DNA from: Ulvibacter antarcticus
Lineage (GTDB): Bacteria; Bacteroidota; Bacteroidia; Flavobacteriales; Flavobacteriaceae
NCBI RefSeq assembly: GCF_003688405.1
Contig: NZ_REFC01000012.1
Location: forward strand, 744,001-808,000
Direction: 5' to 3'
Length of the DNA stretch: 64,000 nucleotides
This document shows positions 4,059-32,512 of the stretch, one piece after another (the first letter of the stretch is position 1; each line of letters starts with the position of its first letter). The position numbers and the translations under genes are program-made. The notes beneath the pieces are model-generated. The model was not told where the DNA came from, made no database searches, and saw only the letters and a list, made by a program, of their open reading frames with translations.

Positions 4059-4790
4059 AGTCCTTCTGATTTGGGCTCAGTGAGCCGATATAGGTTTTTG
4101 AAATAAATTTGGAAATGGTGAAATCAGAAACTTTTATCATCATTGAGTTAGAATTTACTATGCTTAAGAGGGTTTGTTTAAAATAAAAATAGCGAACTCG
4201 ATGATGTATACAAAATAAATCGCTAATAGATATAAGTTATATCTACTTGAAATTGGGGATTTTCGTACAAATACATTTATTTACGCTGATATACCATCAA
4301 TGTTTAAATCATTGTTTATCAAATATAGTTTTTTAATGAACAATACGAATATTTTTTTTTACTGAATTTAGAATAACATCCTAATCTAGTTATTAAAGAA
4401 AGCATTATAAAATCAATTTTACCCATAGCTAAATTTCAAAATGTGATTGTATACTCCTTCGTCAAAAGTACTTTAGGCATTATAACTAATTTGTATATGT
4501 ACGCTTCGGAAGATGTCAATAATCTGTTACTATAAAAAGAGTTAGGAAGCTTTTAAATAACATTCGAACTGTCTAGAACCTAGTAGAAAAACGATACTGA
4601 AGTACAATGAAATATAAGAATTTGTAGAAACAATAATTGTTCTATATAATTTCACCATTAAAAGACAAGTGAAATAATATTTCAAGCGAATTTATAAATT
4701 ATTTAATGTCGAAATTCTATTGAAAAAGTTACTCAAATAAGTAGCGATAACTAAAGCTCCATAAATTCCATTTTTAGTACTTTCGTGTCC
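4059..4790. other. long AT-rich intergenic region between divergent genes
   Basis: About 730 bases without a credible gene, lying between the divergently transcribed histidine kinase and the HipA-like cluster. The one clear structure is a 13-bp palindrome GGCTCAGTGAGCC at 4074-4086, only 16 bases before the kinase start codon, which could be an operator or a leader hairpin. A weak Bacteroidota-type -7 box, TACTTTCG at 4778-4785, precedes the HipA-like gene. I see no RNA gene or insertion sequence. Confidence 0.5.
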
Positions 4791-5570
4791 ATGAATAAAA
4801 TTGATATTCGAAGCGTAGATGTTATTCAATATGTGCAGCCGTTGCGGGAAGGTGGCTCACTTCCTGCTATAGTTAAAGCCGATGATGGATTTCTTTATGT
4901 ACTTAAGTTTAGAGGAGCCGGACAAGGTAAGAAGGCGCTGATAGCTGAATTTATTGGAGGTGAAATTGCGCGAACAATTGGTTTACATGTTCCTGAATTG
5001 GTATTTATGAATCTAGATGATTCTTTTAGCAAGACAGAACCTGATGAAGAAATTCAAGACTTGCTTAAATTTAGTGTTGGTTTAAACCTGGGGTTGCATT
5101 TTTTATCAGGTGCGATTACTTATGATCCATTAGTTTCAAATGTAGATGCAATGACTGCTTCAAAAGTTGTAATACTAGATAGTCTTATTAGTAATATTGA
5201 TAGAACTTCCAAGAACACAAATTTGTTAAACTGGAATAATGAACTTTGGGTAATTGACAATGGAGCTAGTTTATATTTTCACCATGACTGGAAAAATTGG
5301 AAAAAACACCTTATTAGAACATTTCCACTCATCACAGATCATGTACTTTTGCAACAGGCAACTGTTTTAACTGAAGCTTCGGAAGAAATCCAAGGTTTAC
5401 TTAGAAATGAGAGAATTACTGAAATAATTTCAAATATACCCGAAGACTGGTTGTTAAGTGAAGCTGATGCATTAAGTCCTAACGAAATGAGAGCAGCGTA
5501 TATCGAATTTTTAAGTGCAAAACTTTCTATGATTGATTTATTAGTTAAAGAAGCAGCCGATGCAAGATAG
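4791..5570 (+). CDS. HipA-like kinase family protein
   Basis: A protein of about 259 residues resembling the compact HipA-like kinase domain rather than full HipA (about 440 residues). Kinase-like features are VLKFRG near the N-terminus (candidate ATP-binding Lys), NIDRTSKNTN near residue 140 (catalytic Asp and metal-binding Asn) and WVIDNGASL near residue 155 (DFG-like Asp). I chose the ATG at 4791 over a GTG six bases upstream. The end overlaps the DUF3037 gene by 11 bases, so the pair is translationally coupled. No HipB-type helix-turn-helix antitoxin is present. Toxin, kinase or regulatory roles are possible but cannot be decided from the sequence. Confidence 0.8.
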   Translation: MNKIDIRSVDVIQYVQPLREGGSLPAIVKADDGFLYVLKFRGAGQGKKALIAEFIGGEIARTIGLHVPELVFMNLDDSFSKTEPDEEIQDLLKFSVGLNLGLHFLSGAITYDPLVSNVDAMTASKVVILDSLISNIDRTSKNTNLLNWNNELWVIDNGASLYFHHDWKNWKKHLIRTFPLITDHVLLQQATVLTEASEEIQGLLRNERITEIISNIPEDWLLSEADALSPNEMRAAYIEFLSAKLSMIDLLVKEAADAR

Positions 5571-11275: not shown

Positions 11276-11328
11276 TTTGCAGCTTAGAATAAAATACATA
11301 TATTTGGTAAACCAATCTGGTAAACCAA
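11276..11328 (+). promoter_or_regulatory. PL6-operon promoter with two overlapping GntR-type operators
   Basis: A Bacteroidota promoter is seen as TTTG at 11276-11279, a 19-base spacer and TATATTTG at 11299-11306. Two 12-bp palindromes overlap and follow the -7 box: TTGGTAAACCAA at 11304-11315 and CTGGTAAACCAA at 11317-11328, exactly 13 bp apart. A protein bound here would cover the -7 box and start site, so repression is the natural reading. The same arrangement recurs at 19928 and 22676. The TGGT-N-ACCA symmetry fits FadR-type GntR proteins, one of which is encoded at 27688. Confidence 0.85.
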
Positions 11329-11345
11329 TTATATTTAGCTCTGAT

Positions 11346-13664
11346 ATGACACGAAATTTTAGATCATTTTTTGCATTTATTTTGATGAGTTACTTATTAA
11401 TTTCCTGTAACACTACATCTAATAATAGCACTTTAGTTGAAACCATCATTGAATTTAATGAGGCAGTAGCAAATGCCAAACCTGGTGATGCCATAATATT
11501 AAAAAACGGAATCTGGGAAGATTCTGAGTTGTTATTTGCAGCAGAAGGAACAGATGAAAAACCAATAACACTGCGAGCAGAAACACCGGGCAAAGTTTTT
11601 ATAGAAGGAGTTTCTAGCTTAAAATTTGGCGGAAACTATTTGGTAGTTGATGGCTTGCATTTTAGAAACGGATACTCACCTACTGAGGCCGTTGTAGAAT
11701 TTAGAGTTGATGATAACAACATTGCAAATCATTGTACTTTTACCAATAGTGTAATTGAAGACTTCAATAAAATGCAACGTGATGACTCAGATCTTTGGGT
11801 GCTTTTTAGAGGAAGACACAACACCATGAGCAACTGCTACATTGAAGGAAAAACAAATAGAGGACCAACGGTAAGAGTGGACATCGCAGGAAGGGAAAGC
11901 ATTAATAACTACCACCAGATAATTAATAATCATTTTGGACCAAGACCAACGAAAGGTGGAGCTAGTGGAGAAACCATACAAATAGGTGACAGTTATACTT
12001 CAATGTCACCGAGCTATACTATGGTTGCTAATAATCTATTTGAAAAATGTAATGGTGAGGTAGAAATTATATCAAGTAAAACCAATTTCAATGAGTTTAG
12101 AAATAACGTATTTTATCAAAGTGAGGGTTCATTAGTTACCCGACACGGTAATTATGTGACCATTGATGGAAATTATTTTATTGGCGATGGTGTAAACGAA
12201 AATTACGGCGGAATACGAATCATAAATACAGGTCATACGGTAACAAACAACTATTTCTACAGCATCATAGGGAAAAATTTTAGAAGTCCGTTAGCGGTAA
12301 TGAATGGTATCCCAAAATCTCCATTAAACAGATATAATCAGGTTACAGATCTTGTGGTAGCCTATAACACCTACATAAATTGTGCTTCGCCTTGGCAATT
12401 TGGGGTAGGATCTAATATTAGTCAGAAAGATGTCTTGCCATTGTCAGAAATTCGTTCTGCAAGACCTATTCGATCTTTGGTAGCCAACAATATTATCTAT
12501 AATGAGAATGGAGACCCTTCTCCTATTATTGAGCATGATGAAGCTGATGGTGTAACTTTTAAAAGCAATGTAATAAACAATCACGGGCTTGCATTTAAAG
12601 CTTATGATGGGCTGGAAAATTTAGACTTCCAAGTACAAGAGATAGCTCCTTATATTTTCATGCCTTCAGAAACTTTAAAAATTAAAGCATATCAAGGATT
12701 TGGATTCGATGAATTTTCAAAAGATATCTTCGGAAATTCTAGAAAAAATGATACATCTATAGGTGCTAGTGTAAATCCTGCGGCAAAAGATCCAATGATT
12801 TTAGATAAAACGAAATATGGGACAAACTGGTATTCAAATGAAGTAGAAGCAAATGATCCAACAACCCATACCGTATCTAATGCTGATGAACTAAGAATAA
12901 AAATTAATGAAGCCGAAAATGGGGATATTATAAAATTGAAGGCTGGAAATTATGCTATCGAAACTTCATTACAAATTCATAAAAGACTCAACATTTTATC
13001 TGATGATAAATTAAACACTATCCTAACGTATTCGGGCGCAGAAAACACCGCACTTTTTGAATTGCATCCTAAGGGTTTTTTAAACTTGAAAAGTGTTGTC
13101 TTAAAAGGTAATAGCTCACAATATGCTTTTTCAAGTATAAACAAAAACATGTTTACTCATTTTGGGCTGACCGTTTTAGACTGTGCTATAAGTGATTTTA
13201 ACTATGCCTTAAAAGTGTACAAAGAATCATTCGCAGAACGAATCACCTTTCAAGATACGGCTATTTCAGATTGTACAAACGGCTTAGAATTATCTGAAGA
13301 AACAGATGATAAAGGAGATTATAACACAGAATATTTAACCATCAAAAATTGCGATTTTTCAAATGTTAATCGCAATGTAATCGACTATTATCGTGGCGGG
13401 TATGATGAATCTACTATTGGTGGAAATCTTTTAGTTACCAATTCGAATTTTACTAATTGCGGGGGAAAAGAAGAAACCGGGATCCTGATAAACACGCGAG
13501 GTATTATTAATGTAGCTATTTCAGAAAACACCTTTAAAGATAATCCTGTAAAATTGGTTGCATTACTTTGGGGAGCAAAAAATAACTCACATTCGAATAA
13601 TCAAATTACAAATTCGGGCGAAATTAAAGTGGAAGAGAATTTGAAACTTAAGTTGATGTACTAG
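11346..13664 (+). CDS. alginate lyase, polysaccharide lyase family 6 (chondroitinase-B-like)
   Basis: A 772-residue secreted lyase. I chose the ATG at 11346 because the longer frame from a TTG at 11277 would run through the promoter and operators. The start gives a lipoprotein signal ending LLISCNTT. Residues of about 30-480 form a right-handed beta helix of the PL6 type; the catalytic Lys is expected in IISSKTN and the Arg in VTRHGNY about 20 residues later, as in other PL6 enzymes. The C-terminal part (about 510-772) is a second beta-helical domain, as in two-domain PL6 enzymes of the AlyGC type. It cleaves alginate, often with preference for guluronate or mixed blocks. It heads a six-gene operon. 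Confidence 0.92.
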   Translation: MTRNFRSFFAFILMSYLLISCNTTSNNSTLVETIIEFNEAVANAKPGDAIILKNGIWEDSELLFAAEGTDEKPITLRAETPGKVFIEGVSSLKFGGNYLVVDGLHFRNGYSPTEAVVEFRVDDNNIANHCTFTNSVIEDFNKMQRDDSDLWVLFRGRHNTMSNCYIEGKTNRGPTVRVDIAGRESINNYHQIINNHFGPRPTKGGASGETIQIGDSYTSMSPSYTMVANNLFEKCNGEVEIISSKTNFNEFRNNVFYQSEGSLVTRHGNYVTIDGNYFIGDGVNENYGGIRIINTGHTVTNNYFYSIIGKNFRSPLAVMNGIPKSPLNRYNQVTDLVVAYNTYINCASPWQFGVGSNISQKDVLPLSEIRSARPIRSLVANNIIYNENGDPSPIIEHDEADGVTFKSNVINNHGLAFKAYDGLENLDFQVQEIAPYIFMPSETLKIKAYQGFGFDEFSKDIFGNSRKNDTSIGASVNPAAKDPMILDKTKYGTNWYSNEVEANDPTTHTVSNADELRIKINEAENGDIIKLKAGNYAIETSLQIHKRLNILSDDKLNTILTYSGAENTALFELHPKGFLNLKSVVLKGNSSQYAFSSINKNMFTHFGLTVLDCAISDFNYALKVYKESFAERITFQDTAISDCTNGLELSEETDDKGDYNTEYLTIKNCDFSNVNRNVIDYYRGGYDESTIGGNLLVTNSNFTNCGGKEETGILINTRGIINVAISENTFKDNPVKLVALLWGAKNNSHSNNQITNSGEIKVEENLKLKLMY

Positions 13665-13685: not shown

Positions 13686-14729
13686 ATGAAAAATATAGCT
13701 TTAATAATACTAGCTCTTATTGCAATTGTTGCCTGTAAAAATAAATCGGAAACTATTTCCGAAGGAATTGTACAAACCAATGAAATTGTAAAATACCCAA
13801 GCGATGTCTTACCATTTATGGATGAATGGAAGATTTTATTAGGCGATGGTACTCATAATGACTCTTTAATAAATTATTCAAAAGAAGATTTTTTTTATAC
13901 TGAAAACGATGGTAAAACTAATTGGGTAGTATACAAAACTCCAAACTCTGGTATTACCTCCAAAAATTCGGGGAATACAAGAACAGAATTAGGACAAAAA
14001 AAGCGCTGGATACCAGAAACTGGTGGCAAACTTACCGGCAAATTAAAAGTACAACACGTTTCTACAACTGGTGATGCGAGAGTTGCTGCATCATATTCGG
14101 TGGTAGTTGGGCAAATTCACAGTGATGAAGGTCATAAAAATGAACCCCTTAAAATATTTTATAAAAAATTCCCTGGGCACACTAATGGTTCTGTTTTTTG
14201 GAATTATGAAATTAATACGGAAGGTGACAATGGAGAAAGATGGGATTATTCAACGGCCGTTTGGGGTTATGATATGTCTGTTCTAGGAACAAGCCTCGCA
14301 ACTTATCCGGAAGAGCCCAAAGATGGCATTGCCTTAGGTGAAGAATTCAGTTATGAAATAAATGTTTTTGAAGGCATCATGTATCTCACATTTTCAAGTG
14401 ATACACACGAGACTAAGACCTTTACAAAAAGCTTAATAACTTCCGACTATTCAAAAAAATCTGACATTCCGCAACAAATAGTAAGCTTATATGCTACCAT
14501 TGGTCGGGATGGCACGGAAAGAACTAATGCCTATGCCGATGAGTTACAGTTTTTTAAACAAGGTGCATACAATCAAACTAATGGTAAAAAACCAGTAGAT
14601 AATATGGTTTGGAGTACCGGATCAGAAATCTTTGGAGGTAATGTGGCGGAACAATATGCCAAAGGAAGTTATACAGAAGTTTGGTTTAAAGAAGCCACTG
14701 TTGGTTCAGGAACAGCACCGAATAATTAA
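13686..14729 (+). CDS. alginate lyase, polysaccharide lyase family 7 (first paralogue)
   Basis: A 347-residue lipoprotein (signal ending IAIVACKNK) with one PL7/alginate lyase 2 domain. The three family motifs are present: RTELGQ near residue 99 (family pattern R-S/T-E-L/V-R, here with Gly in the last place), VVGQIHS with the QIH active-site triplet, and FFKQGAYNQ near the C-terminus (family YFKxGxYxQ). It depolymerises alginate by beta-elimination, in the periplasm or at the cell surface. It lies 21 bases after the PL6 gene and has a close paralogue at 17937, from which it is separated by two metabolic and transport genes. Confidence 0.92.
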   Translation: MKNIALIILALIAIVACKNKSETISEGIVQTNEIVKYPSDVLPFMDEWKILLGDGTHNDSLINYSKEDFFYTENDGKTNWVVYKTPNSGITSKNSGNTRTELGQKKRWIPETGGKLTGKLKVQHVSTTGDARVAASYSVVVGQIHSDEGHKNEPLKIFYKKFPGHTNGSVFWNYEINTEGDNGERWDYSTAVWGYDMSVLGTSLATYPEEPKDGIALGEEFSYEINVFEGIMYLTFSSDTHETKTFTKSLITSDYSKKSDIPQQIVSLYATIGRDGTERTNAYADELQFFKQGAYNQTNGKKPVDNMVWSTGSEIFGGNVAEQYAKGSYTEVWFKEATVGSGTAPNN

Positions 14730-14741
14730 AATATTAAATCA

Positions 14742-16625
14742 TTGAAAAAAGTAATCTTCATAATAGGCGTTGCTGGATGTGGAAAAAGCACTATTGGAAA
14801 ATTACTAGCAGAAGAATTACATATTCCTTTTTTTGATGGTGATGATTTTCATTCTGAAAACAACCTTAAAAAAATGTCTGGCGGACAAGCTTTAAATGAT
14901 GAAGATAGACAAGGTTGGTTAGAAACTTTAAATGATTTGGCCAAAAAGCAATTGATTAAGAACAGTTGTGTTATTGCATGTTCAGCACTGAAACAAAAAT
15001 ACCGTATTACGTTAAGTGATACTTTAGAGAACCAAACTAAATGGGTGCATTTATCTGGAAGCTTTGAGCAGATTTTGGAAAGAATGAATAGTCGAACGGA
15101 TCATTTTATGCCCTCAGAATTATTAAAATCTCAATTTGATATTTTAGAAAAACCTAGAGAAGCGATACAAATAGATAGTAGCTTATCACCAGAAAACAGT
15201 ATTAAAATCATAAAAAAAGAATTAATGAATACCTCTGACTTTGGATTATTTGGCTTAGGTGTTATGGGAAAAAGTCTGTGTAGAAATTTAGCAAATAATG
15301 GATTTAAAATTTCAATGTATAACAGACATGTTGAAGGTGTTGAGGAAAATGTCGCTAAAAATTTTAAAGACGAATATCCTGAGTTATCCAATGCAGCTGC
15401 TTTTGACGATATTTCTGCTTTTGTAAAATCTTTGCAACAACCAAGAAAAATAATGCTGATGGTTAATGCAGGAAAAACAATAGATTTTGTATTAGAAGAT
15501 TTGCTTCCACATTTATCTAAAAATGATATAATTATAGACGGAGGAAATTCTAACTATGTAAACACCAAAGAGCGTTTTGATTATTTAAAAACTAAGGGTA
15601 TTCATTTTATAGGAACAGGAGTTTCCGGAGGAGAAGAAGGTGCTTTAAGAGGGCCTTCAATAATGCCAGGTGGAGACTTAGCGGCCTATAAAAGTGTTCA
15701 GTTATTTCTAGAAACAATTGCTGCTAAAGACCAAAATAATTTACCGTGTTGTACCTATGTTGGTCCCGAAGGAAGTGGTCATTTTATAAAAATGGTACAC
15801 AATGGTATTGAGTATGCTGAAATGCAATTGCTAGCTGAAGTATGTACCATATTAGAATCTACAGCTAAAAATCCGGATGAAATAGCCAACATTTTAGAAA
15901 CTTGGAAAGACAATGCTAATAGTTATTTACTAGAAATTACAATTGATATTCTTAGAAAAAAGGAAGGTGACGATTGGTTGGTAAAAAAAATATTAGATAA
16001 AGCTGCTAATAAAGGAACTGGAAACTGGACGACTATTGCTTCGGCAGAGCTGGGTGTTCCAAGTACTTTAATAGCTTCTGCCCTATTTGCTCGATATACT
16101 TCGTTTAATAAAGGTGAGCGACTTGCAAATAATGAAATTTATAGAAATACTAAAAAAGCAAAAGTTGATATCGCCATTGATGAGGTGCGTGAAGCATATC
16201 AATTTGCAAGAATTATAAATCATTATCAGGGTTTTAAACTCATTTATGAAGCGTCGAATGCTTATTCCTGGAATTTAAATTTAAGTGAAATTGCCAGAAT
16301 TTGGACCAGTGGCTGCATTATTAAATCCTCTTTAATGAAAGATTTAGTCGATATCCTTAAAGACACAAAAAACATATTAAACAATCCGCGATTAGTGGAA
16401 TCCATTAATCAATACAAACCATCAGTCAAAAAAGTAGTATCACAATGTGTACTCAATGACCTTACTGTGCCTTGTTTAAGTGAATCTATTCAATTTTTCA
16501 ATGGAATTACAACTGCATACTCTTCAGCAAATATAATACAAGCTCAAAGAGATTATTTTGGAGCACATACCTATCAAAGATTAGATGATGTAAAAGTAAA
16601 AAGTCATCATACAAACTGGAAATAA
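14742..16625 (+). CDS. gluconokinase / 6-phosphogluconate dehydrogenase fusion
   Basis: A 627-residue two-domain enzyme. Residues of about 1-160 are a GntK-type gluconokinase: P-loop GVAGCGKSTIG at 8-18, FFDGDDFHS, and SCVIACSALKQKYR-type core (pattern CSALKxxYR). Residues of about 165-627 are a full-length 6-phosphogluconate dehydrogenase: nucleotide loop GLGVMGKSL, IIDGGNSNY, GTGVSGGEEGAL, the catalytic GHFIKMVHNGIEY with Lys and Asn, and C-terminal YFGAHTYQR. The protein would turn gluconate into ribulose 5-phosphate with release of CO2 and NADPH or NADH. The start is a TTG, forced by the P-loop lying only eight residues further on. No stop or frameshift separates the domains. Such an enzyme is unexpected in an alginate operon, whose DEH pathway does not pass through gluconate. 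Confidence 0.92.
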   Translation: MKKVIFIIGVAGCGKSTIGKLLAEELHIPFFDGDDFHSENNLKKMSGGQALNDEDRQGWLETLNDLAKKQLIKNSCVIACSALKQKYRITLSDTLENQTKWVHLSGSFEQILERMNSRTDHFMPSELLKSQFDILEKPREAIQIDSSLSPENSIKIIKKELMNTSDFGLFGLGVMGKSLCRNLANNGFKISMYNRHVEGVEENVAKNFKDEYPELSNAAAFDDISAFVKSLQQPRKIMLMVNAGKTIDFVLEDLLPHLSKNDIIIDGGNSNYVNTKERFDYLKTKGIHFIGTGVSGGEEGALRGPSIMPGGDLAAYKSVQLFLETIAAKDQNNLPCCTYVGPEGSGHFIKMVHNGIEYAEMQLLAEVCTILESTAKNPDEIANILETWKDNANSYLLEITIDILRKKEGDDWLVKKILDKAANKGTGNWTTIASAELGVPSTLIASALFARYTSFNKGERLANNEIYRNTKKAKVDIAIDEVREAYQFARIINHYQGFKLIYEASNAYSWNLNLSEIARIWTSGCIIKSSLMKDLVDILKDTKNILNNPRLVESINQYKPSVKKVVSQCVLNDLTVPCLSESIQFFNGITTAYSSANIIQAQRDYFGAHTYQRLDDVKVKSHHTNWK

Positions 16626-16648: not shown

Positions 16649-17923
16649 ATGGAAGCGTCTAAGACTAATAAATCATTTCTGAAGAAAGTTATAGCGCTAA
16701 TCTTGGGTTTTGGTCCTGGTATTTTTGCAATTGGCTACACCATTGGTACAGGCAGCGTAACCTCTATGATTGTTGCAGGAAGTAAATTTAATATGCAATT
16801 ATTATGGGTGCTTTTATTAAGCTGTATTTTCTCAGGAATTTTAATGTTTGCTTATGGAAATTACGCGTTACTAACAGGTGAAACAGCACTTTTTGGGTTT
16901 AAAAAACATTTAAAATACGGGAAGGTTTTAGCGATATTAATAATTATAGGAATTACGTTTGGACAATGGAATTCACTAATGGGTATTTTAGGGATTTCAT
17001 CAAATATTATATATGAAATACTGGCAGTTAATTTTAATGGATTAGGTGCTTATAAATATGAAACCGTTCTAATAATTGCAATTGTAATAATTATTACTTT
17101 TTACTTACTAATGCTAGTCGGTAAGTACACTTTTTTTGAAAAGATACTCGTCATATTTGTAACCCTAATGGGTTTCTCGTTTATATTGTCATTATGCTTT
17201 GTGCAGCCACTTCCTTTAGATGTTGTAAAAGGATTAATACCAACGATACCTGATGTTCCGGGTGGTAAAATGTTAGTTGCCGCATTTGTTGGCACCACTA
17301 TGGCTTCGGCTACTTTTCTATCACGACCCTTATTTGTAAAAGGAAAAGGATGGACTATCAAAAATTTAAAGCAACAAAAAAGAGACTCCATTACTGCTGC
17401 CATTCTAATTTTTGTAATTAGTGGAGTTATTATGGCAGTAGCCGCTGGCGCTTTGTTTTATCAAGGTAAGGAGGTGACTCAAGTACTTGATATGGCAAAT
17501 ACTTTAGAGCCGGTAGCTGGTAAATGGGCTGTTACTATTTTCTTTTTTGGAGCATTAAGCGCAGGCTTATCATCAATATTTCCTTGTTTATTAATAGCGC
17601 CGTTACTGGTTGCTGATTATCAATCGGGAACCTTAGACACCAATTCTCGTCAGTTTAGAATTATCACTGCAATTGCATGTCTGGTGGCTTTAATTGGCCC
17701 TGCCTTTGGAGCAAATCCTATTGAAGTCCAAATTCTATCCCAAGTTTTTAATGTGTTTGTGCTTCCAGTTGTAGTACTAGGTATTATTCTTATGCTAAGC
17801 AGTAAAAAAGTAATGAAAGATTATACCACTAGCGTAGGTGTTTATATGGGCTTGTATGCTGCGCTTTTCTTTTCATTAGTGATTTCATACAATGGTATAG
17901 TAGCACTTCTGGAATATTTCTGA
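16649..17923 (+). CDS. NRAMP-superfamily membrane transporter lacking the metal-binding motifs
   Basis: A 424-residue membrane protein with about 11 helices and the fold signature of NRAMP/MntH proteins: FGPGIFAIGYTIGTGSV in TM1 and GTTMASATFLSRPLF in TM6. In metal-transporting NRAMPs these places read DPGN and MPHxxxxHS; here the TM1 Asp and Asn and the TM6 Met are gone, so ordinary Mn or Fe transport is doubtful. Its place between the gluconokinase/dehydrogenase fusion and a PL7 lyase, under the alginate promoter, suggests a sugar acid, its counter-ion or Mg as substrate. That is inference; the family call itself is sound. Confidence 0.78.
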   Translation: MEASKTNKSFLKKVIALILGFGPGIFAIGYTIGTGSVTSMIVAGSKFNMQLLWVLLLSCIFSGILMFAYGNYALLTGETALFGFKKHLKYGKVLAILIIIGITFGQWNSLMGILGISSNIIYEILAVNFNGLGAYKYETVLIIAIVIIITFYLLMLVGKYTFFEKILVIFVTLMGFSFILSLCFVQPLPLDVVKGLIPTIPDVPGGKMLVAAFVGTTMASATFLSRPLFVKGKGWTIKNLKQQKRDSITAAILIFVISGVIMAVAAGALFYQGKEVTQVLDMANTLEPVAGKWAVTIFFFGALSAGLSSIFPCLLIAPLLVADYQSGTLDTNSRQFRIITAIACLVALIGPAFGANPIEVQILSQVFNVFVLPVVVLGIILMLSSKKVMKDYTTSVGVYMGLYAALFFSLVISYNGIVALLEYF

Positions 17924-17936
17924 TAACTAATTAAAG

Positions 17937-19055
17937 ATGAAAAATATGAAACCAAATAATATACAAATGACTAAAAAAACGATTACATCATCAGCAACGT
18001 TCATAATTCTTACTCTTCTCATAATATTAAGTAGTTGTAAAAATGAAGCGAAGGAACCAAACAAAAAAGAAATTGCAAAAACAGTTTATGCAAGTGATGT
18101 TATTCCATTTTTTGATCATTGGAAATTAATTTTAGGTGATGGTACAAATGCTGGTATTGCAAACAATTTTGAAAATACAGATTTCTTTTTCACCACAAAT
18201 GATGGCAAAAGCGATTGGGTTGTATTTAAGTCTCCAAATGGTGGAGACACACATGGAACTTCAAACAATACAAGAACCGAATTGGCGCAAGTAAAAAAAT
18301 GGTATCCCAAAACTGCTAATGATAAATTAACAGCTACACTTAAGGTAATGAATGTATCTGCGACTGGTGATGCACGTGTAGCGGCTTCATACGCTGTCGT
18401 TGTAGGTCAGATTCATAGTGCAGATTTACATGAAAACGAACCACTTAAAATATTTTATAAGAAATTCCCCGGCCATTCCAAAGGCTCAGTTTTTTGGCAT
18501 TATGAAATCAATACAGAAGGTGATGATAATTCTGGAAGATGGGATTATTCCACGGCTGTTTGGGGCCATGACTTTTCTGTAGTTGGTACTGATGCAAAGA
18601 CCTATCCGGAAGAACCTAATGACGGTATAACTTTAGGGGAAGAATTTAATTATGAAGTCGAAGTTAAGGATGGTATTATGACCTTAAAATTTAGTAGTGA
18701 AGGTCATGAAACAAAATCGTTTACAAAAAACTTAATCGAATCTGAATATACAACAACTGCAGATATACCAGATCAAACACAAAAATTATTTGTGCCAATT
18801 GGTCAAGACGGAGTTGAACGTAAAAATGCCTACGCTGGTGAAGGTTGTTTTTTTAAGCTTGGCGCTTACAATCAAACCAATGGAAAGTCTCCCGATGAAA
18901 ATATGAACTGGTGTTCTGGTGCTGAAACACATGGTGGCAATCTTCAAAAACAATATGCAGATGGTAACTACGCAGAGGTATGGTTTAAAACAGCAACGAT
19001 CTCTGTAAGTGATGCGGCCGTATCCAATGAAGGATATTTCACCAAAAATGATTAA
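17937..19055 (+). CDS. alginate lyase, polysaccharide lyase family 7 (second paralogue)
   Basis: A 372-residue lipoprotein with signal ending IILSSCKNE. It could start at ATG 17937, 17946 or 17967; the last gives the most normal signal peptide. The PL7 motifs are RTELAQ, VVGQIHS and FFKLGAYNQ. It is very similar to the product of 13686-14729 through the core (shared GDARVAASY, NEPLKIFYKKFPGH and DYSTAVWG), so the two come from a local duplication. Differences around the motifs and an added C-terminal tail may give different block preference or mode of cleavage. It belongs to the PL6 operon. Confidence 0.92.
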   Translation: MKNMKPNNIQMTKKTITSSATFIILTLLIILSSCKNEAKEPNKKEIAKTVYASDVIPFFDHWKLILGDGTNAGIANNFENTDFFFTTNDGKSDWVVFKSPNGGDTHGTSNNTRTELAQVKKWYPKTANDKLTATLKVMNVSATGDARVAASYAVVVGQIHSADLHENEPLKIFYKKFPGHSKGSVFWHYEINTEGDDNSGRWDYSTAVWGHDFSVVGTDAKTYPEEPNDGITLGEEFNYEVEVKDGIMTLKFSSEGHETKSFTKNLIESEYTTTADIPDQTQKLFVPIGQDGVERKNAYAGEGCFFKLGAYNQTNGKSPDENMNWCSGAETHGGNLQKQYADGNYAEVWFKTATISVSDAAVSNEGYFTKND

Positions 19056-19076: not shown

Positions 19077-19847
19077 ATGATAAACAATAATAAATTAGCT
19101 GGCAAAAATGTTCTAATAACCGCTGGTGCTCAAGGAATTGGAGAGTCGATTACAAGGCATTTTATTGATAGCGGTGCTAATGTTGCCATTCATTATTTTT
19201 CCAGTGCCGAAACTGCAAATCAATTAATTGAATATGCAAACGGCAAAGGGCAAAAAGCGGTTGCAATAGCTGGTGACTTAACAAAAGAAACTGATGCGAA
19301 TGCGATAGTAAAAAAAACGGTAGAAGCATTTGGTGGATTAGATATACTAATCAACAACGCAGGTTCACTAGTTGCGCGTAAAATGTTAAGCGAAATGGAG
19401 ACTGAGTTTTGGCATAAAGTAATGGATATCAATCTTACATCCATGATGTTTGTGACGCGAGCAGCGGCTCCATATTTAGCAAAAAATGATCACAGCAGTA
19501 TAGTGAATTTGGCATCACTTGCTGGGCGTAAAGGGGGCCATCCTGGATCATTAGCTTATTCTACAAGTAAAGGTGCTATCCTAACCCTAACACGAGCCCT
19601 CTCGTCAGAATTGGGACCCCAAGGTATCCGAGTCAACGCAGTGTCTCCAGGTCTTATCCTTGGAACTTCATTTCACAATACACATACTACGAATGAATCA
19701 GCGACTGCAACAACGGCCGGAATTCCAATTCAAAGAGCGGGCAACGCAGCTGATGTAGCACGAGCAGTTGTATATCTGGCATCCGAATACGACGGGTTTA
19801 TTACCGGTGCGACATTAGACATCAATGGCGGCGTCTACAATATGTAA
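19077..19847 (+). CDS. SDR family oxidoreductase, candidate DEH reductase
   Basis: A 256-residue classical short-chain dehydrogenase. The cofactor loop reads TAGAQGIGES (family TGxxxGIG, with Ala in place of the first Gly), NNAG follows at strand 4, and the catalytic Ser and YSTSK lie near residues 147-164. It ends the PL6 operon. The pathway needs an enzyme to reduce 4-deoxy-L-erythro-5-hexoseulose uronate (DEH) to 2-keto-3-deoxygluconate, and known flavobacterial DEH reductases are SDRs. A second SDR lies at 29921, so which of the two reduces DEH, or whether both do, cannot be settled here. Confidence 0.82.
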   Translation: MINNNKLAGKNVLITAGAQGIGESITRHFIDSGANVAIHYFSSAETANQLIEYANGKGQKAVAIAGDLTKETDANAIVKKTVEAFGGLDILINNAGSLVARKMLSEMETEFWHKVMDINLTSMMFVTRAAAPYLAKNDHSSIVNLASLAGRKGGHPGSLAYSTSKGAILTLTRALSSELGPQGIRVNAVSPGLILGTSFHNTHTTNESATATTAGIPIQRAGNAADVARAVVYLASEYDGFITGATLDINGGVYNM

Positions 19848-19993: not shown

Positions 19994-22288
19994 ATGAGAA
20001 TAGTTAGTAACTATAATACTCTAATAATAATTATCTCAACATTATTGATATTTATTTCCTGTGCAGAAGATAAAGTGTCGTCCCCAACACTTTCTTCTTC
20101 TGCTTCGGAAATATCAAATAATGCACACCCCTCTTTGATTATAACTAGCGCAGGTGTAGAAAAAATAAAAGCGAATCTAGGAAGTATTCCCATTTTCGAT
20201 GCCTCTCTTGAAGCTGTAAAAAATGAAGTGGATACTGAAATTGCATCTGGAATAGAAGTACCTATTCCGAAAGATTTTTCAGGAGGTTATACTCATACTC
20301 GTCATAAGAAAAACTTTCTTATTCTTCAAAAAGCAGGAATTTTATATCAGATTTTAGACGATCAGAAATATGCAAAGTATGTTCGTGATATGCTCTTTCA
20401 GTATGAAGCAATGTATAAAACATTACCTATTCATCCTCAAACGCGATCTTACGCCAGAGGTAAATTGTTTTGGCAATGTTTAAACGATTCAAATTGGCTG
20501 GTATATGTTAGTCAGGCTTATGACTGTATTTATAATTATTTAACTGCTGAAGAACGTGAAACATTAGAAAAGAATCTCTTTAGACCTTTCGCCGATTTTA
20601 TTTCAATAGAGAATCCACAGTTTTACAATCGCATTCACAACCACAGTACATGGGGAAATGCCGCAGTTGGTATGATTGGTTTAGTGATGAATGATGAAGA
20701 ATTAATAGAACGTGCACTCTATGGAATAAAGCACGACGGTTTGGATCCTAATGCAAAAGATAATGATGGAGGCTTTATTAAAAGTAAAGATGGAAAAGCA
20801 GGTTTCATAGCCAATTTGGAAGAACCTTTTTCACCCGACGGTTATTATACTGAAGGCCCCTATTATCAGCGTTATGCGATGTATCCATTTTTAATTTTCG
20901 CTGAAGGTTTACAAAATGTAAAACCGGAACTGAAGATATTTCAGCACAAAGATAGTGTGCTGCTAAAATCGGTGGATGCTCTTTTAAATCTTTCTGATGC
21001 AGACGGTGAGTTTTTTCCACTTAATGATGGTCAAAAAGGAATGTCATATTTTTCAAGAGAGTTGGTTACGGCAGTGGATATTGCATATCATTATGGAGGA
21101 CATCATCCAGGACTTCTAAGCATTGCCGAAAAACAAAATAATGTATTATTAGATGATTCAGGTTTGTCTGTAGCATTGGGATTAAAAAATGGTGAAGCAA
21201 AACCATTTAATAAAAAATCAATCAATCTTTCAGATGGTTCAGATGGCAAACAAGGAGGCGTTGGTATTTTGAGATATGGTAATGAAGATATGACCCTCGT
21301 TTTTAAGTATGCAGCCCAAGGATTGAGTCACGGTCATTACGATAAGTTATCTTTTTCACTTTATGAAAAAGGAGACGAGATACTTCAGGATTACGGTTTG
21401 GTTCGTTTTGTCAATATCGAACAAAAAGGAGGAGGTAACTATTTACAGGCAAACTCTAGTTGGGCAAAACAGACGATTGCCCATAATACATTAATTCAGA
21501 ATGAAACTTCGCATTTTGAGGGGAAATATGAAATTGGCAGTAAACATTTTTCAGAATTATATCTTTTTGATGTTGCAAATGAAGCCATTCAAGTGGTAAG
21601 TGCCAAAGAAAACAACGCTTATCCGGGGACTCAAATGCAGCGCACATTGGTAATGATAAAAGACGAAAATTTTGAAAAACCTTATGTGCTGGACCTTATG
21701 CAGGTAACTTCCAATACAACGAATCAATACGATCTACCCTACTATTTTATGGGTCAGGTTATAAAAACCAATGTTGACTATAAAACTCATCAAACACTAA
21801 AGAAACTTGGGGGCGCAAACGGATATGAACATCTTTATGTTGAAGGGATAGGTAATGCTTCGGAAGAGAATACAAAACTGTCTTGGTTAAATCATGGTAA
21901 CTTTTACTCATTAACTTCAGCAACAAATAAAGCAGATCAAATACTATTTACTAGAATTGGAGCTAATGACCCGGAATTTAATCTAAGAAGAGATGCCGGA
22001 TTTATGATACGGAGGAAGAATTCAAAAAACACTGTATTTGCAAGCACGATCGAATCACATGGTAGTTATAGCCCTGTGTCTGAATTCGCATTAAATTCAA
22101 ATTCTAATATCGCCGATTTGGAAGTCGTATTCTCTTCCGAAGAATATATGGGTATAAGTATTACGGATTTAAATGGCAGTACCCGATTATTTATTATGTC
22201 GAATAAAGATGCTTCAAAGGAAAAAAATCACACGATTAAAATAAATAACATAATGCATCAATGGACAGGTGCTTATTATTTCAAATAA
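19994..22288 (+). CDS. oligoalginate lyase, polysaccharide lyase family 17 (heparinase II/III-like)
   Basis: A 764-residue lipoprotein (signal ending IFISCAED) with an N-terminal alpha/alpha-toroid alginate lyase domain and a C-terminal heparinase II/III-like beta-sandwich domain. Expected active-site parts are NHSTWGNA (Asn-His pair) near residue 217, TEGPYYQRY (Tyr) near 287, and LSHGHYDKLSF near 440 in the second domain. PL17 enzymes act exolytically on oligoalginate and release unsaturated monomers, which become DEH. The gene is first in a two-gene operon with kdgF, 16 bases downstream, so monomer release and ring opening are produced together. Confidence 0.93.
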   Translation: MRIVSNYNTLIIIISTLLIFISCAEDKVSSPTLSSSASEISNNAHPSLIITSAGVEKIKANLGSIPIFDASLEAVKNEVDTEIASGIEVPIPKDFSGGYTHTRHKKNFLILQKAGILYQILDDQKYAKYVRDMLFQYEAMYKTLPIHPQTRSYARGKLFWQCLNDSNWLVYVSQAYDCIYNYLTAEERETLEKNLFRPFADFISIENPQFYNRIHNHSTWGNAAVGMIGLVMNDEELIERALYGIKHDGLDPNAKDNDGGFIKSKDGKAGFIANLEEPFSPDGYYTEGPYYQRYAMYPFLIFAEGLQNVKPELKIFQHKDSVLLKSVDALLNLSDADGEFFPLNDGQKGMSYFSRELVTAVDIAYHYGGHHPGLLSIAEKQNNVLLDDSGLSVALGLKNGEAKPFNKKSINLSDGSDGKQGGVGILRYGNEDMTLVFKYAAQGLSHGHYDKLSFSLYEKGDEILQDYGLVRFVNIEQKGGGNYLQANSSWAKQTIAHNTLIQNETSHFEGKYEIGSKHFSELYLFDVANEAIQVVSAKENNAYPGTQMQRTLVMIKDENFEKPYVLDLMQVTSNTTNQYDLPYYFMGQVIKTNVDYKTHQTLKKLGGANGYEHLYVEGIGNASEENTKLSWLNHGNFYSLTSATNKADQILFTRIGANDPEFNLRRDAGFMIRRKNSKNTVFASTIESHGSYSPVSEFALNSNSNIADLEVVFSSEEYMGISITDLNGSTRLFIMSNKDASKEKNHTIKINNIMHQWTGAYYFK

Positions 22289-28604: not shown

Positions 28605-29879
28605 ATGAAAATAAAAGGACTAAGATGGTGGATTATATCTTTAATCTGTTTAGCCACGGTTATAAATTATATTGATAGAACAGCATTTGGGGTGATGTGG
28701 CCAGAGATGGGTAAAGACCTTGGTATGGACGAATCTGACTATGCCGTTATGTTAAACGTCTTTATGGTTACCTATGCGTTAGGAAAATTTTTATCAGGAA
28801 AATTATATGATATAATTGGAACACGTATGGGCTTTACAGTATCAATTGTTGTTTGGTCTGTTGCATCTATCTTTCATGCATTCGCTAAAGGATTATTTTC
28901 ATTGACATTATTTAGAGCTCTTTTAGGTTTAGGAGAAGCTGGAAACTGGCCTGGAGCCGTTAAAAGTAATGGAGAATGGTTTCCGGTTAAACAACGGGCT
29001 ATAGCACAAGGTATATTTAATGCTGGTGCTTCATTAGGAAGCGTTATTGCACCGATTTTAATAGCTTTTTTATATGGCCATTTTGGTTGGAGATCAACTT
29101 TTATCATCATTGGAGCAATTGGTATACTTTGGGTAATTCCCTGGTTATTTATAAATAAGACTACTCCTGAATCTCATCCTTGGATTACCGAGAAAGAAAG
29201 AAATCTTATCATGAACAGTCAAATTGAGAAAGCTGCATGTGATGTAAAGAAAGGAAAAGGACTAAGTGTAGTACAAATTCTAAGTTATAAGGAATCTTGG
29301 GGAGTACTAGCCTCTAGATTTTTTATTGAGCCTATTTGGTGGCTATTTGTTGGGTGGATGCCCTTATATTTAAATTCAAAATTTGGATTCAGTATAGAAG
29401 AAATTGGTTCTACTATCTGGATATCTTATTTAGGAGGTATGGCAGGAAGTATAATTGGTGGTTGGTATTCAGGAAAATTAATGGAAACAAAATCTGTTGA
29501 TGCGGCCAGAAAGATTACAATTACCATTGGGTGTACCTTGATCTTTTTAGGCTTACTAGGCATTATATTCTTAGTAACAGAAAATAATCCAATGACATTC
29601 ATATATATAGTCGCTGTAGTTCTCTTCGGATTTCAATTCGCAATTGGGAATATCCAAACAATATCAAGTGATTTATTAAAAGGGCCATCAGTTGGTACAT
29701 TAGCAGGATTAGCAGGAAGTGTTGCGGCAGTTTCTGTAATCATAATGAACTCACTAATCCCATCTATTGCTTCTGTATCATATACACCCGCATTTATAGT
29801 AATCGCTATTCTAGCTCCAATGGCCGTGATATCAATCTTCGCGTTGATTAAAAAAATAGAGCCAGTAGAAAATAAATAA
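28605..29879 (+). CDS. MFS transporter, anion:cation symporter (ExuT-like hexuronate) type
   Basis: A 424-residue transporter with 12 predicted helices. The N-terminal INYIDRTAFGV in TM1, GKFLSGKLYDIIGTR in the TM2-3 loop and RALLGLGEAGNWPGA in TM4 are the signature of the ACS family, whose members (ExuT, GudP) move hexuronates and aldarates with protons. Here it should bring DEH, KDG or related uronates across the inner membrane. It is the first gene of the second half of the locus, ahead of an SDR and the KDG-degrading enzymes. No TTGGTTAACCAA box is seen in front of it, so it may be under a different regulator. Confidence 0.92.
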   Translation: MKIKGLRWWIISLICLATVINYIDRTAFGVMWPEMGKDLGMDESDYAVMLNVFMVTYALGKFLSGKLYDIIGTRMGFTVSIVVWSVASIFHAFAKGLFSLTLFRALLGLGEAGNWPGAVKSNGEWFPVKQRAIAQGIFNAGASLGSVIAPILIAFLYGHFGWRSTFIIIGAIGILWVIPWLFINKTTPESHPWITEKERNLIMNSQIEKAACDVKKGKGLSVVQILSYKESWGVLASRFFIEPIWWLFVGWMPLYLNSKFGFSIEEIGSTIWISYLGGMAGSIIGGWYSGKLMETKSVDAARKITITIGCTLIFLGLLGIIFLVTENNPMTFIYIVAVVLFGFQFAIGNIQTISSDLLKGPSVGTLAGLAGSVAAVSVIIMNSLIPSIASVSYTPAFIVIAILAPMAVISIFALIKKIEPVENK

Positions 29880-30762: not shown

Positions 30763-30809
30763 GCTATTTGGCTTTTTAAAAAGTGAAGTTTAGTAATAAA
30801 ATTCAAAAA

Positions 30810-31832
30810 ATGAGTAAAGTTGTCACATTTGGCGAAATCATGTTAAGACTCTCAACAGAGCGTCATTTAAGATTTTCTCAAGCCAAAAGTTTTGCTGCTT
30901 CTTATGGTGGTGGAGAATTTAATGTAGCAGTTTCATTAGCAAATTATGGAATTCCCGTTGAATTTATAACAAGATTACCTAATAATGAAATTGGAGCCTG
31001 TGCGTTAAAAGAGATGCGTAAATTTAACGTGAAGTCTGAAAACGTAATATATGGTGGCGACCGTTTAGGTATCTATTATCTTGAAACAGGTGCTGGAACT
31101 CGTGGTAGTAATGTTGTATATGATAGAGCAAATAGTTCGATGGCAACTATTACAAAAGGAGCTATAAACTGGGAGTCTGTATTAAAAGATGTTACTTGGT
31201 TTCATTGGAGTGGTATTACTCCTGCAATTTCTGAATCTGCCGCAGAAGAATGTTTAGCAGCAATAAAAGTTGCCCATAAACTAGGTGTTACAATTTCTTC
31301 AGATTTAAATTATAGATCTAAACTTTGGCAATACGGAAAGGAGCCAGATCAAATCATGCCAGAACTTTTAAAATATAGTAATATTATTTTAGGAGATATT
31401 GACACTGCTCTATTTATGTTAGGAAAACCTAAAGTAAAGCCAAACTATCAAAATGAAAAATCATTACCTGTTATATATGATGAACTATTTAAATTATGCC
31501 CTAATTTAAAAACTGTTGCGACCACATTAAGATACTCTGTTAGCGCATCGCATCAAAGAATAGGCGGTATATTATATGATGGTAAAAACATATTCAATGC
31601 AGATGTTAAAGAAGTAACTCCTGTAGTTGATAGAGTTGGTAGTGGTGACGCGTTTATGGGTGGATTAATCTACGGAATGATAAACGATAGCAACGACAAA
31701 CAACGAGCTTTAAATATTGCAGTGGCTGCTTGCTGTTTAAAACATACTATATCTGGTGATTACAATTTAATTACCCTCAACGAAATTGAAAAACTACTAA
31801 GTGGAGACGAATCTGGTAAAGTCTCAAGATAA
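30810..31832 (+). CDS. kdgK: 2-keto-3-deoxygluconate kinase
   Basis: A 340-residue PfkB/ribokinase-family enzyme. I chose the ATG at 30810 (MSKVVTFGEIMLRLS), since the GTG at 30783 would add nine atypical residues. Family signatures are FGEIMLRLS at the N-terminus, SYGGGEFNVAVSLA near residue 37 and the PfkB motif VDRVGSGDAFMGGL with the catalytic Asp near the C-terminus. It phosphorylates KDG to KDPG with ATP. The aldolase gene follows by 11 bases, so kinase and aldolase are coupled. Confidence 0.92.
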   Translation: MSKVVTFGEIMLRLSTERHLRFSQAKSFAASYGGGEFNVAVSLANYGIPVEFITRLPNNEIGACALKEMRKFNVKSENVIYGGDRLGIYYLETGAGTRGSNVVYDRANSSMATITKGAINWESVLKDVTWFHWSGITPAISESAAEECLAAIKVAHKLGVTISSDLNYRSKLWQYGKEPDQIMPELLKYSNIILGDIDTALFMLGKPKVKPNYQNEKSLPVIYDELFKLCPNLKTVATTLRYSVSASHQRIGGILYDGKNIFNADVKEVTPVVDRVGSGDAFMGGLIYGMINDSNDKQRALNIAVAACCLKHTISGDYNLITLNEIEKLLSGDESGKVSR

Positions 31833-31843
31833 ATCACAATACA

Positions 31844-32512
31844 ATGGCACAACACTCAAGAATTAATGTTGCAAATATTATGACTAAAACGGGCTTAGTT
31901 CCGTTGTTTTATGATAGTGATATATCAATTTGCAAAAAAATATTAGATGCTTTATATAATGGTGGAGCACGATTATTAGAGTTTACTGCTAGAGGCGATT
32001 TTGCCGAAGATGTTTTTAGTGAACTAAATAAATATGCAATATCAAAATTACCTGGAATGATTCTAGGCGTTGGTTCTATAACCGATGGGGCTGCTGCATC
32101 AAGATACATGGCTTTAGGTGCCAATTTTATTGTAACTCCTGTTTTAAGAGAAGATATTGCGCTAGTCTGCAATCGTAGGAAAGTGCTATGGTCACCAGGT
32201 TGTGGATCTTTAGCCGAAATTGCAAAAGCCGAGGAATTAGGTTGCGAAATTGTAAAACTGTTTCCCGGGGGTATCTATGGTCCCGATTTTGTAAAAGCGA
32301 TAAAAGGGCCTTGTCAATGGACAAGTATTATGCCTACAGGTGGTGTATCACCTACCAAAGAAAATTTGGAAAGTTGGTTTAAGGCTGGTGTTACTTGTGT
32401 TGGTATGGGATCTAAATTAATTGTAAAGGATGCGAGCGGAAATTATGACTATAATAAAATCCGAGAACTGACAAAGTCCTCTCTTGAGATAATTGCAGAA
32501 TTAAAGAAATGA
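31844..32512 (+). CDS. eda: 2-keto-3-deoxy-6-phosphogluconate (KDPG) aldolase
   Basis: A 222-residue class I aldolase of the KDPG/KHG family. LVPLFYDSD opens the barrel, LLEFTARG contains the expected Glu, GVGSI and the FIVTPV strand follow, and the Schiff-base Lys is expected in GCEIVKLFPGG. TGGVSP and FKAGVTCVGMGSKLI form the phosphate-binding end. It splits KDPG to pyruvate and glyceraldehyde 3-phosphate, the final step of alginate breakdown. Its stop overlaps the start of the LacI-like gene by four bases (ATGA). Confidence 0.93.
   Translation: MAQHSRINVANIMTKTGLVPLFYDSDISICKKILDALYNGGARLLEFTARGDFAEDVFSELNKYAISKLPGMILGVGSITDGAAASRYMALGANFIVTPVLREDIALVCNRRKVLWSPGCGSLAEIAKAEELGCEIVKLFPGGIYGPDFVKAIKGPCQWTSIMPTGGVSPTKENLESWFKAGVTCVGMGSKLIVKDASGNYDYNKIRELTKSSLEIIAELKK

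Follow-up and report, generated by a model that had tools for sequence, protein, structure and literature searches.

Results and Discussion

The Nramp-related transporter P0001, encoded in the alginate locus of the window (the whole stretch of 64,000 nucleotides analyzed), is probably an inner-membrane importer with the Nramp fold whose substrate is a sugar acid (an aldonate or a uronate) rather than a metal; the likeliest substrate is gluconate, which would feed the GntK-Gnd fusion enzyme encoded next to it. Taken together with the first alternative discussed below, in which the substrate is an acid derived from alginate, the assignment to the class of sugar acids becomes likely. Gluconate itself is proposed with more reserve, as a choice somewhat short of even, because GntP is found together with the Nramp gene in three loci (L100, L180, and L181), which lowers the strict gluconate reading.

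The Transporter and Its Locus

The genes running from the PL6-type lyase to the short-chain dehydrogenase (PL6, PL7, GntK-Gnd, Nramp, PL7, SDR; Table 1) are co-directional and separated by gaps of 12–23 nt, an arrangement that is consistent with one putative operon. The GntK-Gnd gene, which ends 23 nt upstream of the transporter, is the only Gnd match in its own genome at E 1e-80. The SDR is presumably a DEH reductase, and the sugar kinase and the KDPG-type aldolase farther downstream are presumably KdgK and KdgA. The MFS protein is the other candidate for an inner-membrane acid carrier in the locus. Upstream of the locus, at 4785–5570, the window encodes a protein that we take, by reading, to be HipA-like; it resembles one at L119:11548-12333, which sits two genes from the Nramp of that locus.

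Table 1. Features of the alginate locus in window coordinates, with the motifs of P0001 in residue numbers
Feature	Position	Strand	Basis
PL6-type lyase (Chondroitinase B family)	11277..13664	+	PF14592, 1.8e-190
PL7-type alginate lyase	13686..14729	+	PF08787
GntK-Gnd fusion (gluconokinase - 6-phosphogluconate dehydrogenase)	14742..16625	+	TIGR01313, TIGR00873 above cut-off; 6PGD, NAD_binding_2
Nramp-related transporter, GTGSVT clade (P0001)	16649..17923	+	ORF and translation, PF01566, fold, tree, conserved residues
P0001, TM1 motif GTGS	residues 33-36		
P0001, TM6 motif GTTMASATFLSR	residues 215-226		
PL7-type alginate lyase, 13 nt downstream of the transporter	17937..19055	+	PF08787
Short-chain dehydrogenase (SDR)	19077..19847	+	PF13561 / PF00106
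PL17-type oligoalginate lyase	19994..22288	+	Hepar_II_III_C, Alginate_lyase; NF042990 below cut-off
MFS transporter, galactonate-transporter type	28605..29879	+	MFS_1; best NCBIfam TIGR00893, below cut-off
Sugar kinase, called KdgK	30783..31832	+	name by reading and gene context
KDPG-type aldolase, called KdgA	31844..32512	+	name by reading and gene context

The open reading frame of the transporter begins with ATG, encodes 424 amino acids, and contains no internal stops. The only Pfam match of the protein at E 0.001 is PF01566 (Nramp), with an E-value of 1.8e-62 and 211.9 bits, to be compared with a curated cut-off of 29.8 bits. The AlphaFold2 model, built on 67 sequences, has a pLDDT of 79 and a pTM of 0.81, and its top Foldseek matches are EleNRMT, BfraNramp, and DraNramp. 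A second structural aligner superimposes it on DraNramp (8E60) with a Z of 41.5 over 376 residues at 2.9 Å, i.e., the model shows the LeuT fold in its Nramp form, which bears out the sequence-only reading that this fold is kept. The pLDDT falls below 50 at residues 1–7, 224–228, and 317–323, and the placement of Arg226 in the model is weaker because it lies in the second of these segments. We regard P0001 as a genuine non-canonical Nramp-related transporter and a member of PF01566.

Neighborhoods of the Close Relatives

A scan of species genomes gave 584 confirmed candidates, the best 80 of which, 72–93% identical to P0001, were named as loci; judging by their titles, we take all of them to be Bacteroidota. 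Among these best 80 of 584, the gene directly upstream of Nramp is the GntK-Gnd fusion in 49 cases, a Gnd-labeled ORF in 4, GntK alone in 5, KdgA in 8, and KdgK in 1, such that an enzyme of sugar-acid metabolism occupies this position in 67 of the 80 loci (58 with GntK-Gnd, Gnd, or GntK and 9 with KdgA or KdgK). The four Gnd-labeled ORFs start about 1.9 kb before the Nramp gene, like the full fusions. The other upstream genes are a PL7 lyase in 6 loci and in L086 (the latter by Pfam), another Nramp in 1, and in the remaining 5 a phosphofructokinase (L103), a glutaminase (L095), a ribonucleotide reductase (L105), an unnamed gene (L090), and an opposite-strand ORF (L112); L095, L105, and L112 have no sugar-acid enzyme as a neighbor. 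The median gap between the upstream gene and Nramp is 24 nt (79 of the 80 loci). At the Maribacter/Zobellia-type loci the Nramp gene follows KdgA, and GntK-Gnd is absent from the flanking DNA examined. L107 (Maribacter algarum) has a tandem Nramp pair, at about 8698 and 10001, behind KdgK-KdgA, the first of the two being 31% identical to P0001.

A PL6, PL7, or PL17 homolog is present in the flanking DNA of 59 of the same best 80 loci by tblastn, and of L086 by Pfam. The association with alginate use is also seen in 99 related genomes, where an Nramp ortholog (at least 69% identity) occurs in 10 and PL17 in 13. The two are found together in 9 genomes, Nramp alone in 1, PL17 alone in 4, and neither in 85 (Fisher p 4e-9, kinship ignored). 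The gene of the alginate MFS transporter is present in 14 of the 99 genomes, including all 13 with PL17. Since Nramp is found in 9 of the 13 PL17 genomes and the MFS gene in every one of them, Nramp is an optional companion of alginate use and not its core carrier. The idea that Nramp replaces the alginate MFS carrier was likewise rejected, as the MFS gene is retained in all 13. Among viral contigs, 29 stretches matched a pattern and none proved to be a relative.

The Slot Shared with GntP

Support for gluconate comes from what other genomes of the family place behind the fusion enzyme. In 299 family genomes there are 44 fused GntK-Gnd genes, and the next gene on the same strand, among the matches listed, is this Nramp in 12 cases, GntP in 20, and neither in 12. 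The gap to the next gene, taken between match ends with the stop codon counted, is 20–55 nt for Nramp and 17–148 nt for GntP. The count draws on 72 typed places (44 fused genes, 26 unfused Gnd, and 2 GntK), most of the unfused Gnd matches of lower identity being left out, and on 86 GntP places typed among the matches listed, with 38 further places at at least 57% identity typed for the next-gene count. Five of the genomes scored as neither (G683, G714, G055, G689, and G605) hold at least one weaker GntP match beyond those listed, and in these GntP may adjoin the gene. When GntP is sought anywhere in the genome (E 1e-20), a match appears in every one of the 32 other genomes but, among the 12 of the Nramp type, in G037 alone (Fisher p 1.6e-9, kinship ignored); this exchange may have been a single event in one lineage. 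The genome of P0001 and that of its congener G003 gave no GntP match at E 0.001. Within the flanking DNA of the best 80 of 584 loci, 56 of which have full 10 kb flanks, GntP appears in L100 only. GntP (PF02447) belongs to a different Pfam family, which P0001 does not match at E 0.001, but this difference concerns homology and not function, and we propose the same job for P0001 as for the permease that takes the same slot.

The fate of glucose-6-phosphate dehydrogenase points in a similar direction. No match to G6PDH (PF02781) was found in the genome of P0001, despite the presence of the GntK-Gnd fusion, nor in any of the 13 genomes with Nramp behind Gnd, this one included. Where GntP follows the fused gene, a match is seen in 1 of 9 genomes; two genomes with a separate Gnd do have G6PDH. 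As 8 of the 9 GntP-type genomes lack the enzyme too, its absence goes with the GntK-Gnd fusion rather than with Nramp, and in genomes of both kinds the fusion enzyme runs without the usual source of 6-phosphogluconate. The missing route from glucose-6-phosphate to 6-phosphogluconate in most fusion genomes agrees with a supply of gluconate. In the GntP-less genomes a way in for gluconate is then missing, and the adjacent Nramp could provide it, GntP being the one permease family searched for.

Some loci have both carriers. In L100, L180, and L181, Nramp and GntP lie beside the same enzymes. The order in L180 is GntR, MFS, two SDRs, KdgK, KdgA, Nramp, GntK, Gnd, GntP, which amounts to a full gluconate set including GntP, with Nramp in addition, and L181 has a Zn-type alcohol dehydrogenase, Nramp, RbsD/FucU, GntK, Gnd, and a GntP-like stretch. 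In these loci Nramp is redundant with GntP or else transports a different acid, e.g., KDG. Together with L118, where Nramp adjoins GntP, these loci indicate that Nramp need not be the gluconate carrier.

We have to weigh an alternative in which P0001 joins the MFS transporter as an additional carrier, its substrate being an acid derived from alginate (2-keto-3-deoxygluconate, DEH, or an unsaturated uronate) and its link to GntK-Gnd reflecting shared regulation. The lyase homologs flanking most of the named loci and the co-occurrence with PL17 favor this proposal, as do the nine of the best 80 loci in which Nramp directly follows KdgA or KdgK and the gene order of L180. However, Nramp is absent from 4 of the 13 PL17 genomes while the MFS gene is absent from none, and GntK, part of the commonest neighbor, phosphorylates gluconate rather than KDG. 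We consider this alternative rather unlikely. The MFS protein, which every one of the 13 PL17 genomes encodes, could itself be the carrier of the acid.

The Former Metal Site

The residues of the site in P0001 were assigned from alignments with E. coli MntH, BfraNramp, an Arthrobacter Nramp, and EleNRMT. Three alignments are concordant on the position of DPGN in TM1, and the TM6 alignment with 10KY is off by one in one of them. Relative to MntH, the Asp and Asn of TM1 are replaced by Gly33 and Ser36, the counterpart of DPGN being GTGS. In TM6, the Ala corresponds to Thr216, the Met of MPH to Ala219, the first His to Ala221, and the second His to Arg226, and the canonical A/CxxM and MPH thus give way to TxxA followed by Ser-Ala. 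The sequence-only reading was right that the Asp, Asn, and Met ligands are missing. Both stretches that it quoted are present, GPGIFAIGY at residues 22–30 and GTTMASATF at residues 215–223, but the former was placed a few residues too early to be the metal-site motif of TM1.

The pattern extends beyond one sequence. Gly33, Thr34, Ser36, Thr216, Thr217, and Arg226 are identical in all 31 rows of the clade and are also invariant in the 67 rows of the close-ortholog alignment, which comprises P0001 and 66 of the 80 named loci (left out were L069, which has stops, seven near copies, and L057, L060, L063, L078, L085, and L099). Position 219 varies among the 31 clade rows (Ala 16, Ser 7, Gly 7, Phe 1). 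None of these rows has an acidic residue at the TM1 site, and the Arg of TM6b is invariant. The metal ligands of the canonical Nramps are thus lost in P0001 and its clade. In the alignment, the rows of PxpT-like and further Nramp-related proteins likewise show Gly instead of the TM1 Asp, while EleNRMT retains the Asp.

In the maximum-likelihood tree of 45 proteins, the 31 GTGSVT proteins (11 of alginate type and 20 deeper ones, a subset of those fetched) are united by one branch with a support of 100/100. The four MntH rows, two of them nearly identical, form a separate branch (100/99), and six PxpT-like proteins a third group (98/91). The grouping with MntH that the sequence-only reading had named as speaking against a non-canonical transporter is thus not seen. 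L152 and L154 are closest to the alginate-locus proteins. EleNRMT is a single long branch (2.81) attached to MntH at 92/86 in a tree that is flagged for the meeting of long branches; the tree is unrooted, and its deeper order is unreliable. The PxpT-like rows were assigned through their motif, and for L001 also through its neighbors, the PxpT and YcsG sequences themselves not being aligned. On present evidence P0001 would belong with neither MntH nor, on the features tested, the NRMT or PxpT group.

The known systems differ from P0001 in instructive ways. Canonical Nramps (DraNramp, BfraNramp, and E. coli MntH) share the fold, but their DPGN and MPH motifs are absent from P0001, which lies on a separate branch. 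EleNRMT (PDB 7QIA), the best sequence match among solved structures (profile, E 1.4e-32; Z 40.0), is an Nramp-related transporter of the Mg type and illustrates that remodeling can adapt the canonical site to Mg, with the motifs DxxG in TM1 and TxxA/T in TM6 (PMC8806188). P0001 has the second of these (T216 and A219), but GxxS in place of the first, and at position 226 the Arg of the clade stands against an Asn in EleNRMT. PxpT and YcsG (MntG), which belong to 5-oxoproline operons, are of the Nramp family like P0001, and the PxpT-like rows also have Gly for the TM1 Asp. Nevertheless, their motifs are IGPGT and GTTVVPYN, those of P0001 are IGTGS and GTTMASAT, and the two fall on separate branches (98/91 for the PxpT-like proteins). 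The PxpT-like neighbors read as pxpABC, and no such genes were seen beside P0001 on reading the window ORFs of at least 150 aa at 5000–32000. The genome of P0001 has a second Nramp, of the IGPGTVT type, on another contig (L120:9340-12905), directly before three genes that we take, from their first residues, to be pxpA, pxpB, and pxpC (5-oxoprolinase), as in the PxpT/YcsG operons. Both Nramps found in this genome lack DPGN.

The literature on the PxpT/YcsG group is divided. PxpT is reported to be required for the growth of C. glutamicum on 5-oxoproline, with deletion abolishing growth and a plasmid copy restoring it, while its authors leave room for metal transport (PMC13274462). YcsG of B. subtilis has been reported as a Mn importer that raises the Mn content of the cell, with data from overexpression and from a mutant (PMC10448178). 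As the two papers disagree, a metal role is not to be dismissed from sequence. Nor is redundancy an argument against a role in Mn transport, since a strong match to E. coli MntH is found in only 1 of 36 genomes with this Nramp (G642, 44% identity), the other matches being 22–30% identical.

These observations bear on a second alternative, namely, that P0001 carries a divalent cation (Mg, Mn, or Ca) by means of a different site and shares its regulation with ion-requiring enzymes or with the import of a polysaccharide that binds cations. It would account for the PF01566 match and the Nramp fold, for the TxxA shared with the NRMTs, and for a genome in which neither Nramp found has DPGN, and it has precedents in the Mg site of EleNRMT and in the report on YcsG. 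Against it stand the TM1 site without an acidic residue and the invariant TM6b Arg in all 31 rows, and the slot behind GntK-Gnd that Nramp has in common with GntP. Moreover, we noticed no gene for metal regulation or metal homeostasis next to the members of the clade, most ORFs being judged by their first residues, in contrast to the DPGN-type Nramp of L177, whose neighbors are a cation diffusion facilitator (cation exporter) and a metal-dependent regulator. We find a cation carrier improbable. The sequence-only reading had offered a sugar acid or a counter-ion such as Mg or Ca as the substrate; the former is now the better supported, through the upstream genes and the GntP slot, and the latter is less so, because EleNRMT keeps the TM1 Asp where P0001 has Gly and because the usual neighbors are aldonate enzymes.

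Deeper Relatives of the Clade

Several of the deeper relatives also lie among genes of acid catabolism. L117 contains a hexuronate set (RraA-like, UxaC, SDR, Nramp, UxuA), and Nramp is the sole inner-membrane carrier seen among the ORFs in the 19 kb read, which implies that import is needed there. In L152 the Nramp gene is accompanied by DGOK, a KDPG-type aldolase, and SMP-30, and in L153 it adjoins a PL6-type lyase. L166 has UxaC about 6 kb downstream of Nramp and, upstream, ORFs that by reading are presumably TRAP-like, and L116 has a MOFRL/DUF4147 gene about 4 kb downstream. Many others are found amid amino-sugar, amidohydrolase, or glycosidase genes, some adjoining an SSF symporter: L113 has amidohydrolase and glucosamine-isomerase neighbors, with a DGOK gene about 5 kb off, L155 an asparaginase-type neighbor, L163 an amidohydrolase, and L156 GH2 and an SSF symporter. 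From their first residues, L114, L115, L157-L160, and L162 resemble one or other of the loci that are not specific for an acid. The neighbor names DenD-like, ManA, Gfo/Idh, TRAP-like, HipA-like, and pxpABC are presumptive, having been given by reading the first residues. The common denominator of these neighborhoods is carbohydrate and acid catabolism.

More distant settings were also encountered. On the chromosome of E. coli SK1144, between dnaB and qorA (L173:1415-8402), a GTGSVT Nramp lies in a putative acid-catabolism operon with a LacI regulator, a CoA transferase, an enoyl-CoA hydratase, and an FAD oxidoreductase, and there is no other carrier among the genes of this operon. Its DNA is matched in 825 of 5,426 complete E. 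coli genomes, with at least 80% of the query covered in 545; the copy on CP054241.1 reads out of frame. A Mesobacillus plasmid (L176:1435-2703) encodes a very divergent Nramp, with GVGTADLVTS in TM1, after thiolase and CoA-transferase genes, and these surroundings are those of an acid pathway, as in other Nramp loci. On a Neorhizobium plasmid (L172:5665-9248), genes for a LacI protein, a dihydrodipicolinate-synthase-family protein, and a DPGN-less Nramp-related protein stand side by side.

Proposed Function

A third alternative, an exporter acting as a release valve for sugar acids that accumulate during fast alginate breakdown, would suit a facultative member of a locus already equipped with an MFS carrier, but it is highly improbable, as P0001 occupies the position of the importer family GntP and L117 shows no other inner-membrane carrier.

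For P0001 as a sugar-acid importer, we propose the following course. The carboxylate of the substrate would be bound at the former metal site, perhaps aided by Arg226, and uptake would be driven by Na+ or H+. The main substrate would be gluconate rather than 2-keto-3-deoxygluconate or another hexonate, and P0001, acting in the manner of GntP and similar aldonate permeases, would let gluconate into a cell whose genome gave no match to either G6PDH or GntP. The imported gluconate would then be phosphorylated by GntK and oxidized by Gnd to ribulose-5-phosphate with formation of NADPH.

Implications

Neither a sugar-acid Nramp nor a substrate for the GTGSVT clade is named among the papers listed in the open-licence literature searched; a sugar-acid role is what we put forward as the best explanation. 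In Alteromonas sp. 76-1, a gene in an alginate cluster is labeled Nramp in the legend of a supplementary figure (PMC6431674), a likeness by label alone. According to the legend of Figure 1 of another study, the Nramp-related groups other than the NRMT-like one and "G-motif 3" are "entirely uncharacterized" (PMC12873925). If the clade carries sugar acids, the substrates of such groups become testable.

A broader proposal, for and against which we see about equal weight, is that the whole GTGSVT clade, from the flavobacterial alginate loci to the E. coli operon, consists of carriers of sugar acids or other carboxylates, marked by the loss of the TM1 Asp and by the invariant TM6 Arg. Such proteins are currently annotated as divalent metal transporters. 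If the proposal is true, then, together with PxpT, it would make many proteins of that annotation transporters of organic anions and would place the origin of metal transport inside the Nramp fold. A common gene of marine alginate degraders would thereby gain a function, and the flavobacterial genomes without GntP would gain an entry route for gluconate.
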